Below are positions 1-4,285 of a DNA stretch of 10,737 nt, one piece after another (position 1 is the stretch's first letter; the number at the start of each line of letters is the position of its first letter). Below the pieces are notes generated by a model. The model did no database searches. It saw only the letters and a list, made by a program, of their open reading frames with translations, and had not been told where the DNA came from. The position numbers and the translations under genes were made by a program. This stretch comes from Eubacteriales bacterium (GTDB lineage: Bacteria; Bacillota; Clostridia; Christensenellales; CAG-138), in NCBI GenBank assembly GCA_030695285.1, contig JAUYTF010000232.1:1-10737 (forward strand), written 5' to 3'.

Positions 1-421
1 CACGGAAGGTGTCCGCCGCCGCCAGCATGACGCGTCTGCCCTGCTCACGATAGCTGTTTGCAAGCTTACCGATGCTGGTCGTCTTTCCCACACCGTTGAC
101 GCCGACGATGAGCAGCACCGTAGCGCCCGCGTCAACCGAAAACGGCTTTTGCGTGGTGACGGCTTTGGCAATCACTCCCGCAAGCGCTTTTTTCGCGCCC
201 GCGCGGTCGGAGATCTTTTGTTCTTTGATAGTAACCTGTAGGTCGTCCAGCAGATGCTCGGTGACGGCGGCCCCCGCGTCCGCGAGGATCAGCGCTTCTT
301 CGAGCTCTTCATAAAACGCTTCGTTGATGCCGTCTTTGGAGGCAAAGAGTCGCGCGAGCAGCCCCGTGCGGGTCTTGCCCAACCCTGTTTTCCATTTTTG
401 GAACAATGGCTTTTTTTCCAT
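1..421 (-). CDS. ftsY: FtsY, signal recognition particle receptor GTPase (N-terminal part, cut by window edge)
   Basis: FtsY is the SRP receptor. It docks the Ffh-ribosome complex at the membrane and hydrolyses GTP to hand nascent membrane proteins to SecYEG. About 140 codons are visible, and the 3' end lies beyond base 1. The protein starts [20 protein letters not shown] and goes straight into the helical N domain, with no long acidic A domain, as in many Firmicutes. The G1 P-loop GVNGVGKTT is at residues 107-115, and the G2 region ending ADTFR is at the edge. I chose the ATG at 421 because an in-frame TAA lies only 3 bases upstream and an AAGGTG sits 6 bases before it. That ribosome-binding site lies inside the last of a set of 54-bp repeats that copy the first eight ftsY codons. 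The gene follows smc, a standard arrangement; ffh would be expected further downstream. Confidence 0.95.
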
Positions 422-424
422 GCA

Positions 425-475
425 TTACACCTTGAATTCTCTGTAACTATTTTGGAACAATGGTTTTTTCTCCAT
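425..475 (-). other. Possible leader mini-ORF 3 (16 codons), directly upstream of ftsY
   Basis: The ORF encodes [16 protein letters not shown], with ATG at 475 and TAA at 427-425. AAGGTG lies 6 bases before its start. Its own last sense codons, AAG GTG, form the ribosome-binding site of ftsY, and the ftsY ATG begins 3 bases after its stop. This is the geometry of translational coupling. The first eight residues are identical to those of FtsY; the codons differ only at synonymous positions (GAG/GAA and AAA/AAG). It could equally be an untranslated remnant of tandem duplication. Confidence 0.35.
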
Positions 476-478
476 GCA

Positions 479-583
479 TTACACCTTGAATTTTCTATAA
501 CTAGTTTGGAACAATGGTTTTTTCTCCATACATTTCACCTTGAATTCTCTGTAACTAGTTTGGAACAATGGTTTTTTCTCCAT
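479..583 (-). other. Possible leader mini-ORF 2 (34 codons, two fused repeat units)
   Basis: The ORF starts at the ATG at 583 and ends at TAA 481-479. An AAGGTG lies 6 bases before the ATG. In this copy the TAA that normally closes a unit is AAA, so two 18-codon units are fused: [18 protein letters not shown] followed by [16 protein letters not shown]. The stop is followed after 3 bases by the next ATG. The product is small, basic and not recognised. Whether it is translated is unknown; the ribosome-binding site and stop-start spacing would allow it. Confidence 0.3.
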
Positions 584-604
584 ACATTACACCTTGAATT
601 CTCT

Positions 605-664
605 CTAACTATTTTGGAACAATGGTTTCTTTCCCATATTTATTGATCCAATCGTTAAGATCAT
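605..664 (-). other. Possible leader mini-ORF 1 (10 or 19 codons) in the outermost repeat
   Basis: From the ATG at 637 this reads MGKKPLFQNS and stops at TAG (607-605). An in-frame upstream ATG at 664 would extend it to 19 residues. The unit has TAG where the other copies have TAC or TAT, so this copy ends early, 21 bases before the next ATG at 583. Neither ATG has a convincing Shine-Dalgarno, so translation is doubtful. I list it because it shares the frame and most of the eight-codon block with ftsY. Confidence 0.2.
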
Positions 665-697
665 TCGTCGCTTTTTCTTCTAATTGTTTTGGTAAAA

Positions 698-3600
698 TCA
701 GCTTGCCTGTTCCGGCACGGTGGTGATGCCGTTTTCGCCAAAGCGCGCGGAGACCACCTTGCTTACTCCCTTTTCCTCCATCGAAACACCGTAAAGCGTG
801 TCGCAGACCTCCATGCTCCCTTTTCGGTGCGTGATGAGGATGAACTGCGTCCCGTCGGAATAGCGCTTGACGTAGTCCGCAAAGCGAGAGACGTTCGCCT
901 CGTCCAGCGCGGACTCGATCTCGTCTAGCATGCAAAACGCGGGCGGCTTGAGCTTTAGCATCGCAAACAAGAGCGCGATAGCGGTCAGCGTGCGCTCGCC
1001 GCCGGAGAGCAGCGAAAGCAGCTGCAGCTTCTTGCCCGGCGGCTGGGCGATGATGTCTATGTCGCAGCCCAGCACATCGTTTTTGTCCGCGAGGCGGAGC
1101 TCGGCCTGTCCGCCGCCAAAAAGCTCGGCAAACGTGACGGAAAAATTCTCTTGAATCAGCGCAAACTGGCGCAGGAACACGGTTTCCATCGTGCCGGTGA
1201 GTTCGACGATCAGGGTCTCGAGATCCTGCTTTGCTTTGTGCAGGTCGTCGCATTGCGTGGCGAGCTCGCTGTGCCGCTCGAACACGCTCTTATATTCTTC
1301 GATAGAGCCCAGGCTGATGTCCCCTAGCCCCTTGATCTCCTGCTTGATCTCGCTCACCCGCGCGTTGCTCATGCCAACCGCGATCTCGCGCTTGAGCGCC
1401 GCCGCGTTTTCATAGGTGAGGTCGTATTCGTTCCAGATATGATCCTGCATCGCGCCGAGTTCCATCTCGAGCTTGCTTTGCGTCATCTCCTGCTTATGGA
1501 TGCGCTCGGCGAGGTCGCGCGAGCCCGTGAGCAGTTCTTCGCGCCGCGCGCGCTGCTCATAGAGCGCGGCGGATACGTTCGCACGTTCTTCCTCGAGTTT
1601 TCTCTGTGCTTCTTTTTCCACGGAGGTCAGCGCGCTGTCGTTTTCGATCTGCGCACGCATGCCGGCGAGATCCGCGTCGATTGCGGCAATATTCGCCTCA
1701 TTCTCCTGAGACTCGTGCTCCAGCGCGGTCAGGCGGAAGGTCAAGTCGCGGTGCTCTGAGACAAGGCGCTTCTGCTCGGCATAGACCGCGTCGCGCTCCT
1801 TGCTCAGCGCCATACGGCGCACCTTCTGCTCGGTGAGTTCGCCTGCAATGGTTTCGCGGTTTTTGCGCAGCTCGTAGAGCTCGCCCTGCGCGCGGGTCAC
1901 ATCCTCGCGCGTGCTTGCGTTGCCCTGCTCAATGTCGGTCTGCTGTTCGTCCGCGCTGGTACGTTCGCGCTCAACCTCGGCAAGGTTGTCGGTAAGCTGG
2001 AGCCGTTCGTCTGCAAGCGTCTGTTCGCTCTGCTCGCTGTGTTCCACATCCCGCCGGATGATGTCCAGCTGTTCCGCCTGCTTTGCCGCAGCGATTTCGC
2101 AGGCATGCACCGCGTCCCGGAAGGAATCCACCTGAATGTCGCAGCGGAGCACATCCTGCTCACCTTTGCGCAAGGAGGCTTTCTTGTCCTCCAGCGCGGC
2201 GTCGGCCTTCTTGAGCTTTTCGCGGAGCTCCTGCAGTTCCCGCTCGCGGCTGAGCAGGTTAAAGTTGTGCTTTTGTAGGCTGCCACCGCTCATGGAACCG
2301 CCGGTGCTGATGATGTCGCCTTCGAGAGTTGCGATGTGGAACGCACCGCGCGTGCGGCTCTTGAGCGCGATGCCCGCGTCGAGGTTCTTTACGATGATCG
2401 TGCGGCAGAGCAGATAGTCCATGACGTTTTTCACGTTATCGTCGCTGTCCACCAGCTCGTTGGCCATGCCGATGCAGCCGGGCACGTCTAAAAACGCCCG
2501 CTCGTCCCGCGTGATGCGCGTGGGGTTGAGCAGCGCCATAGGCAGCAGCGTCGCGCGGCCGTAATCCTTGGCGCGGAGGTATTCGATGACGTATTTCGCG
2601 TCCTCGGCGGTCGGGGTCACGATGTTTTGCAGCGTGCTGCCCAGCGCCATGGTCACGGCGATTTCGTATTCTTTCGGCACGCGGAGCAGCTCGGCTACAA
2701 CGCCGACGATGGCGCGGCCTAGCTTTGCGTCGTTGGGCGCATCCTTGAGTATGTTTTTTACGCTCGCGTAATAGCCCTCGCGCGAGCGCTGCATTTCGTC
2801 CAGCACGCGAAGGCGCGACTGAATCGATGGAATCCCCTGTTCGTCGCGCGAGATCTCCTCGCGCAGCGCGGTGAACGCGTCCAGCGTCTTTCTGCGGTTT
2901 TCAACCGAGCCGTCGAGGTCTTTTTTCGCCTGCTCCAGCCGCTGCGCTTCTTCGGCGTGCTGCTCCTGCGCGAGTTTGAGTTCTTCTAGCAAGCGTGCGG
3001 TCTCGTCCGCGCGGCGCTGCTCTTCGGCCTCTATGGCGACGAGCCGCTCGCCGATGGAGCTTTTCATCGTGTCAAAGCGTGCCGCGCTGGATTTGAAGTC
3101 CGACGCGCGGTTCATCGCCTCGATGATGCTGTTCTTCATCTCGTCGAGGGCTTCTTCGCGCGCAGTGATGTCCGTGTCAATCGCATTGAGGCGCGCTTCC
3201 GCTGATTCCATCTCCTTTTCGAGTAAGGCAAGCGCCGCCTGGCCGGACTCGTCAGCCTGCAATCCGGAGATCACCGCGCCAAGCTCGTCGATGCGCGCCT
3301 TGCTCTGCTCGCGCTCCTGCTCGATTCGTTTTTTTACGTTGAGCGCGTTTTCGCGGCGCTCGGCTAGCACATGGCTGGTGCCGACGCGCGTCTCCGCCTC
3401 TGAAACCAGCCCCATGAGCTTGTTTTGTTGCGCATTCAGCGCGGCATCCAGCGCCTTTAATTGTTCTTCCAGCGCGGCGCAGGTGGAAAGCAGCGCGGCT
3501 TCCCCGTTTTCTGCCAGATCGCGCTCCTCAGTCATCTGGCGCATGGTCTCGTTGATCTGCGTGAGCTTTTCGTGTACGCGGTCGTACTGATAGAGAAAGA

Positions 3601-4285
3601 GATTGACCTCCAGATCCTTCAGCTCGTCGCGCAGGCGCAAGTAGGCGCGCGCGGACGCGCTCTGCTGCTCTAGCGGAGCCAGTCTATCTGCGAGTTCTTT
3701 TAAGATATCCTCGATGCGCTCGAGGTTTTTTTCCGTGTTGTTGAGCTTTCGCTCCGCGTCCTCTTTGCGTACGCGGTAGCGCATCACGCCCGCAGCCTCC
3801 TCAAAGGCCGCGCGGCGATCCCCGCTCTTGTTGGAGAGGATCTCCTCGACCTTGCCCTGGCTGATGATGGAGTAGCCGTCCTTGCCGATGCCGGTGTCGC
3901 AAAAGAGATCGGAAATGTCGCGCAGGCGGCAGTTGTTGCGGTTGATGCAGTATTCGCTCTCGCCGGAGCGGTAGACGCGGCGCGTGATGGCAACCTCGGT
4001 AAACGGAATCTTCAAAAGCCCGTCGCTGTTGTCAAACGTCAACGTCACTTCGCTGTAAGCGAGCGCTTTTCTCAGCTGCGTGCCGTTGAAGATGACGTCC
4101 TCCATCTTACCGCCGCGCAGCGCTTTTGCGCTCTGTTCGCCGAGCACCCAGCGCACCGCGTCGGAGATATTGCTCTTTCCGCTGCCGTTGGGGCCGATGA
4201 TGGCGGTGACGCCCGTTCCAAATCGAATCTCGGTTTTGCGCGCAAAGGATTTAAAGCCGTTGAGCTCCAGCTTGGTCAGTCTCAT
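698..4285 (-). CDS. smc: Smc, chromosome condensation and segregation ATPase
   Basis: Smc is the ATPase of bacterial condensin (Smc-ScpA-ScpB). It organises and segregates the chromosome, loading at ParB/parS sites in characterised species. At 1195 residues it is full length. The Walker A GPNGSGKS is at residues 31-38. Long charged coiled coils of about 170-490 and 680-1000 flank a hinge of about 498-672, which ends with Gly-rich GGSMSGGS. The signature LSGGER begins at 1093. The Walker B CMLDEI is at about 1118-1123, and the ITHRKGSME switch region near 1152 completes the head. The start ATG overlaps the rnc stop as ATGA, which implies translational coupling. Downstream, base composition changes abruptly at the stop codon: the next 300 bases up to ftsY are AT-rich and partly repetitive. 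No terminator was seen between smc and ftsY. Confidence 0.98.
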   Translation of the reverse strand: MRLTKLELNGFKSFARKTEIRFGTGVTAIIGPNGSGKSNISDAVRWVLGEQSAKALRGGKMEDVIFNGTQLRKALAYSEVTLTFDNSDGLLKIPFTEVAITRRVYRSGESEYCINRNNCRLRDISDLFCDTGIGKDGYSIISQGKVEEILSNKSGDRRAAFEEAAGVMRYRVRKEDAERKLNNTEKNLERIEDILKELADRLAPLEQQSASARAYLRLRDELKDLEVNLFLYQYDRVHEKLTQINETMRQMTEERDLAENGEAALLSTCAALEEQLKALDAALNAQQNKLMGLVSEAETRVGTSHVLAERRENALNVKKRIEQEREQSKARIDELGAVISGLQADESGQAALALLEKEMESAEARLNAIDTDITAREEALDEMKNSIIEAMNRASDFKSSAARFDTMKSSIGERLVAIEAEEQRRADETARLLEELKLAQEQHAEEAQRLEQAKKDLDGSVENRRKTLDAFTALREEISRDEQGIPSIQSRLRVLDEMQRSREGYYASVKNILKDAPNDAKLGRAIVGVVAELLRVPKEYEIAVTMALGSTLQNIVTPTAEDAKYVIEYLRAKDYGRATLLPMALLNPTRITRDERAFLDVPGCIGMANELVDSDDNVKNVMDYLLCRTIIVKNLDAGIALKSRTRGAFHIATLEGDIISTGGSMSGGSLQKHNFNLLSRERELQELREKLKKADAALEDKKASLRKGEQDVLRCDIQVDSFRDAVHACEIAAAKQAEQLDIIRRDVEHSEQSEQTLADERLQLTDNLAEVERERTSADEQQTDIEQGNASTREDVTRAQGELYELRKNRETIAGELTEQKVRRMALSKERDAVYAEQKRLVSEHRDLTFRLTALEHESQENEANIAAIDADLAGMRAQIENDSALTSVEKEAQRKLEEERANVSAALYEQRARREELLTGSRDLAERIHKQEMTQSKLEMELGAMQDHIWNEYDLTYENAAALKREIAVGMSNARVSEIKQEIKGLGDISLGSIEEYKSVFERHSELATQCDDLHKAKQDLETLIVELTGTMETVFLRQFALIQENFSVTFAELFGGGQAELRLADKNDVLGCDIDIIAQPPGKKLQLLSLLSGGERTLTAIALLFAMLKLKPPAFCMLDEIESALDEANVSRFADYVKRYSDGTQFILITHRKGSMEVCDTLYGVSMEEKGVSKVVSARFGENGITTVPEQAS

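Follow-up and report, generated by a model that had tools for sequence, protein, structure and literature searches.

A 54-bp tandem array upstream of ftsY that repeats the gene's own translation start

Intergenic minisatellites, or VNTR loci, are local head-to-tail arrays with units of roughly 10-100 bp, and the period of some mycobacterial repeats is similar to that of the 54-bp unit described here. Upstream repeats have been linked to expression in Mycoplasma hyopneumoniae: one report (PMC5179023) describes genes with differing numbers of upstream repeats that differed in expression. BrickBuilt, an intergenic minisatellite of Porphyromonas gingivalis, has a 23-bp unit, lies in a MITE with inverted-repeat ends, occupies 19 places in the genome and has a possible effect on its neighbours (PMC4596501). 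In Beggiatoaceae, direct repeats of the fixed-sequence heptamer TAACTGA lie near start codons at 169 places, and a role in translation has been proposed for them (PMC4679880). A recent review (PMC12548453) covers two systems in which a mini-ORF stands close to a gene start. The MIRU are short, apparently mobile repeats found at the starts of genes at many loci, and their mini-ORF can be coupled to the next gene at -4 nt. Coupled short upstream ORFs end beside the start of the main gene. The same text places the most efficient coupling from -4 to +3 nt, with galT/galK at +3, and quotes a coupling range of about 30-40 nt.

We analysed a window that is one entire contig (C92, 10,737 bases) of a 2.54-Mb genome in 515 contigs (G000). 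We regard the organism as an uncultured member of the Clostridia, solely because named FtsY matches to the G003 protein, from a same-genus relative, are labelled Firmicutes bacterium HGW-Firmicutes-9, Eubacteriales, Clostridiales and Christensenella sp. An earlier note on this DNA had claimed that a 54-bp tandem array copies the start of ftsY. The array is indeed present, and smc, ftsY and the array all lie on the minus strand, a correction to that note. The junction contains the following features:

698-4285, minus strand: smc, upstream neighbour of ftsY (ORF and Pfam)
638..697, minus strand: A+T-rich piece of 60 nt that separates the smc stop from the first copy; open in one frame, absent from the gaps of relatives
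396..638, minus strand: tandem array, period 54, 4.5 copies, 92% matches (Tandem Repeats Finder); the sole array between smc and ftsY
584..637, minus strand: unit P, with an ATG at 637 that lacks AAGGTG; 10-codon mini-ORF 637-605, TAG at 605
530..583, minus strand: unit 1, with AAGGTG at 595-590 and an ATG at 583; the TAA of this copy has been lost, and the frame continues through unit 2
476..529, minus strand: unit 2, with AAGGTG at 541-536 and an ATG at 529; 16-codon mini-ORF 529-479, TAA at 481-479
422..475, minus strand: unit 3, with AAGGTG at 487-482 and an ATG at 475; 16-codon mini-ORF 475-425, TAA at 427-425
2..421, minus strand: ftsY, first 140 codons, truncated by the contig end (ORF; SRP54_N and SRP54 Pfam matches)

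The repetition is strong: the self-match fraction at a shift of 54 was 0.92, versus a maximum of 0.44 in shuffles (2000 mononucleotide shuffles, shifts 30-79). The repeat unit consists of the native smc-ftsY leader and ftsY codons 1-8, the first 26 bases of ftsY forming the final partial copy. The smc stop, at 700-698, lies 276 nt upstream of the ftsY ATG. The ATGs at 637, 583, 529, 475 and 421 are spaced by exactly 54 bp and all stand in the ftsY frame, as the earlier note had stated. It had also given every unit a ribosome site and an ATG. This holds at 583, 529, 475 and 421, where AAGGTG stands 6 nt 5' of the ATG, and fails at 637, where the ATG is preceded by other DNA. The array thus comprises three extra complete copies of site and ATG, one extra ATG with no site, and the true ftsY start, whose own AAGGTG (433-428) is included in unit 3.

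The four 54-bp units are 47-51/54 identical in pairs, with eight variable columns; start codons and sites are invariant among the copies, which is uninformative given so few variable columns. Owing to the TAA lost from unit 1, the mini-ORF from 583 runs for 34 codons (583-479). The stops at 481-479 and 427-425 each lie 3 nt upstream of the next ATG. Because every mini-ORF has a stop, the array cannot lengthen FtsY, and an N-terminal extension encoded by the copies was ruled out. Of 7997 passing FtsY homologues, the 120 that were listed all lack the repeat peptide. Compared over the 140 residues encoded in the window, the two best of these, P0036 (99%) and P0026 (95%), both begin with MEKKPLFQ, as the protein does here.

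Where did the unit come from? The earlier note had proposed comparing the smc-ftsY gap between related genomes. In the six same-genus relatives with an ftsY match the gap is a plain 27-60 nt without repeats; the seventh same-genus genome, G005, gave no ftsY match. FtsY identity over the 140 residues is 89% for G003 and 90% for G002. The G003 gap aligns to the leader of the unit, with AAAATAGTT, GAATT and AAGGT in the same order and then the same gene start, showing that the unit is the native junction, leader plus eight codons. An A-run is common to both ends of the unit: AAAATAG in the leader (G003) and CCAAAAATGG in ftsY (window). We propose that repeated tandem duplication of the native junction, from the leader through the ribosome site and ATG to codon 8, gave rise to the array, probably beginning with slippage between two A-runs, a short one in the leader and one at ftsY codons 8-9. 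The A-runs at the unit ends fit such slippage or microhomology-mediated duplication, a step that we infer from sequence with G003 in place of the lost ancestor. The upstream-most native leader is missing from the window locus.

We also tested other ftsY loci for copies of the gene's start region lying upstream. The test covered 105 of 109 loci, four being too short, and scores of 24/33 or lower were treated as background. Three loci scored high, L053 (32/33), L093 (27) and L050 (25), versus 31/33 in the window. These scores come from candidate starts within long N-terminal repeats of FtsY: Tandem Repeats Finder puts L053 and L093 in coding repeats, and L050 has 24-bp and 6-bp arrays there that we take to be coding too.

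The ftsY array is present at one place only in the G000 genome, and three of its units gave no match at E 0.01 in the seven same-genus genomes. We wondered whether other genes of G000 are preceded by arrays and sampled 80 further contigs (389,841 bases, about 15% of the genome) for periods of 30-150 and scores of at least 100. The resulting listing holds seven arrays and calls five of them mostly intergenic. It files the array of L139 as coding, on account of a long ORF across a riboswitch, and we count this array as intergenic; it gives L166 3215-3418 in a 105 x 1.9 reading. Our count leaves out L166 31 x 2.0, as well as L164 84 x 1.9, which sits at the end of its contig. On this count the sample contains five further local arrays, unlike in sequence, with units of 42-52 bp and located inside other contigs. 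All five lie upstream of a gene or over its start:

L139 (G000:C95), 2482-2681: 51 bp x 3.9, between a tandem glycine riboswitch and the gcvH ATG at 2439
L166 (G000:C10), 3215-3418: 52 bp x 3.9, preceding a riboflavin-type ECF transporter gene with its ATG at 3073
L171 (G000:C204), 708-848: 47 bp x 3.0, at the start of an rqcH-like gene with an NFACT_N match
L175 (G000:C208), 2792-2910: 42 bp x 2.8, preceding an ORF with its ATG at 2999 that has no Pfam match
L177 (G000:C300), 592-730: 52 bp x 2.7, upstream of a degV gene, ATG at 784

The 47-bp unit of L171 carries a TTGGAG site, an ATG (positions 813, 766 and 719) and first codons, upstream of and into the NFACT_N gene that we take to be rqcH. 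Thus, ftsY is not the sole gene start copied in G000. The riboswitch of L139 corresponds to Rfam matches at 2707-2804 and 2807-2893, and gcvH was named from its protein and from this preceding element. The unit of the gcvH array starts with a T-run resembling that after the native hairpin; the array was considered as a repeated terminator hairpin, and folding gave no support for this (z -0.60 to 0.95, four pieces). The last 20 contigs sampled (119,012 bases) contributed no array, which weighs against our reading. Tandem repeats were also seen at contig ends, in L142 1-66 (G000:C98, 13 bp x 5.1) and L164 1-160 (G000:C8, 84 bp x 1.9), which suggests that arrays of this kind may end contigs and that our count may be too low. 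What fits into short contigs may partly explain the 42-54 bp size class.

At rqcH, gcvH and degV, the relatives that align on both sides show no array. At rqcH, six of the seven same-genus relatives match (G005 does not), with the flanks 9-60 nt apart and the array absent; at gcvH, all seven match, with the flanks 9-78 nt apart. The array occupies about 136-250 nt at these two loci of G000. All seven relatives match degV solely from beyond the array and, of five examined further, G005 and G001 also align upstream, without an array. The L175 locus found matches in two relatives. With the same settings, arrays classed as intergenic numbered 0 in 383,434 bases of G003, 1 in 200,000 of G002, 4 in 200,000 of G008 (another genus) and 0 in 200,000 of G090; the regions around ftsY in 80 other genomes, 483,719 bases in all, gave 4. 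We do not count the four G008 arrays as alike, given their position 3' of a gene or between genes and their degenerate or palindromic appearance. In G002, a 55 bp x 2.5 array (L145 5528-5665, G002:C1) follows rpsI and has, by eye, one arm of a terminator hairpin per unit. G000 seems richer in arrays than G003, five versus none, in small numbers. The earlier note had called tandem copies of an essential gene's translation start unusual, which is half right: they are absent at ftsY of six same-genus relatives, yet G000 has other local arrays, one of them at a translation start.

Could ribosomes use the copies? Hybridisation of AAGGTG to the anti-Shine-Dalgarno sequence is weak in the array (-3.9 to -4.1 kcal/mol, duplex estimate), within the range for the ftsY starts of six relatives (-3.2 to -4.9 kcal/mol); the values at seven further starts of the window ran from -3.3 to -10.8 kcal/mol. 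Predicted openness around the ftsY start is 0.38 with the array versus 0.53 in a one-copy join. Compared with shuffles, a 321-nt transcript of the array region has a somewhat better predicted fold (z -1.83; 2/100 as good) and a single unit none better (z 0.20); none of our claims rests on the folding of this transcript. A scan of the window against Rfam at the gathering score gave 0 matches, hence no known cis-regulatory RNA, and a simple consensus scan of 300-900 found 0 sigma-70-type hexamers and 0 intrinsic terminators.

Taken together, these observations lead us to favour, with some reserve, a local minisatellite born of microhomology, probably near-neutral or mild in effect and possibly serving as a ribosome relay to ftsY. 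Each AAGGTG-bearing copy would be a weak yet plausible initiation site. With only 3 nt between the stops of the mini-ORFs from 583/529 and 475 and the ATG that follows, a spacing within the range given for the most efficient coupling, ribosomes loading at 583, 529 or 475 could restart and be passed on to ftsY. Such a relay, a use of the copies predicted from their geometry, would help maintain expression of the essential ftsY despite smc ending 276 nt upstream. Any effect of the array we infer to be mild. Against this reading stand the weak sites, the lower predicted openness of the ftsY start with the array, the missing upstream-most native leader and the 60-nt piece, for which it gives no account.

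Two alternatives concern the origin of the array. Assembly could have altered a locus that in truth has one copy or another number: the genome is in 515 contigs, and 396 bp separate the array from a contig end. However, all 54-bp units differ from each other, which makes an artefact unlikely, and the five unrelated local arrays lie inside other contigs; we give this alternative very little weight, and solely the exact copy number of the ftsY array is doubtful. Equally improbable is an insertion of foreign DNA, in which the 60-nt piece and the repeats came together, for example as the tail of a mobile gene. The piece is stop-free in one frame, with a protein-like end, and absent from relatives. 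However, the repeat unit is native junction DNA, and the peptide of 638-697 found no match in plasmids, matches of E 5-8 only in phages and nothing convincing in 101 genomes (best non-self E 0.17), while a pattern of part of it had no match in viral contigs; the piece as a foreign gene tail was therefore rejected. In a search of DNA 600-700 against 61 genomes, the best matches outside its own genome had E 0.00096, which is merely the G002 ftsY start, and E 0.0016. The piece was also considered as a worn copy of the unit and rejected: when it was aligned locally to the copies from 583 onward, 737 and 441 of 1000 shuffles did as well. Across the entire reverse strand it matches the first copy best, with a score of 21 versus 20 for the top match on the other strand.

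Other alternatives give the array a stronger function. The copy number might vary between cells or strains and set the FtsY level through added ribosome entry sites. The position at the start of an essential gene, the in-frame period, the two stops 3 nt before the next start and the M. hyopneumoniae precedent (PMC5179023) are consistent with such tuning, but similar arrays stand before unrelated G000 genes, which suggests a mutational habit, and we consider tuning unlikely. We are slightly more sceptical of a decoy, in which the extra sites and mini-ORFs would either reduce ftsY translation by trapping ribosomes or insulate the gene from smc. The smc-ftsY distance is now past the coupling range quoted in PMC12548453, and the array region as a whole folds somewhat better than shuffles; against this, the lone unit does not, and with stops only 3 nt ahead of the next starts, restart is favoured over loss. 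A broader proposal would have a lineage with locus-born 42-54 bp arrays made from the genes' own leaders or starts, in which those of ftsY and rqcH act as mini-ORF relays and copy number sets the ribosome supply; we put it forward as a long shot. The local minisatellite with a possible relay thus remains our preferred reading.

Arrays of a gene's own translation start, at the essential ftsY and again at rqcH of G000, would show how upstream mini-ORFs can arise from plain local duplication. The ftsY array would allow a direct test of whether starts in tandem increase, reduce or relay the ribosome supply, and of whether some bacteria hold many such arrays before genes.

How does the ftsY array relate to described systems? 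A literature search of titles and abstract starts, with most subscription journals outside its scope, recognised no array of a gene's own translation start and no ftsY repeat, which is weak evidence of absence. Like BrickBuilt, the ftsY array is an intergenic minisatellite with a possible effect on its neighbours; unlike BrickBuilt (PMC4596501), it is at one place and not 19, and its unit is not the 23-bp unit of a MITE. With the TAACTGA repeats it has in common direct repeats near start codons and a proposed role in translation, but it is a 54-bp unit at one place, not a heptamer of fixed sequence at 169 (PMC4679880). Its mini-ORFs from 583, 529 and 475 end beside the next ATG, as coupled short upstream ORFs do beside that of the main gene (PMC12548453), yet they come in several tandem copies, each of the main gene's own first codons. 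With MIRU the array has in common short repeats at a gene start that carry a mini-ORF placed for coupling, the stops at 481-479 and 427-425 standing 3 nt before an ATG. The ftsY array differs from MIRU in that its unit is native to one locus and derived from the gene's own start, with a spacing of +3 nt instead of -4 nt; many loci and mobility are not seen here, with one place in G000 and no match in seven same-genus genomes. As a local, intergenic head-to-tail array of about 50 bp, it resembles the intergenic minisatellites and VNTR loci, from which it is set apart by a unit that extends over the ribosome site and start codon into the coding sequence of the next gene, and by being known from one genome. 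We place the ftsY array among the bacterial intergenic minisatellites, with a MIRU-like coupling geometry.
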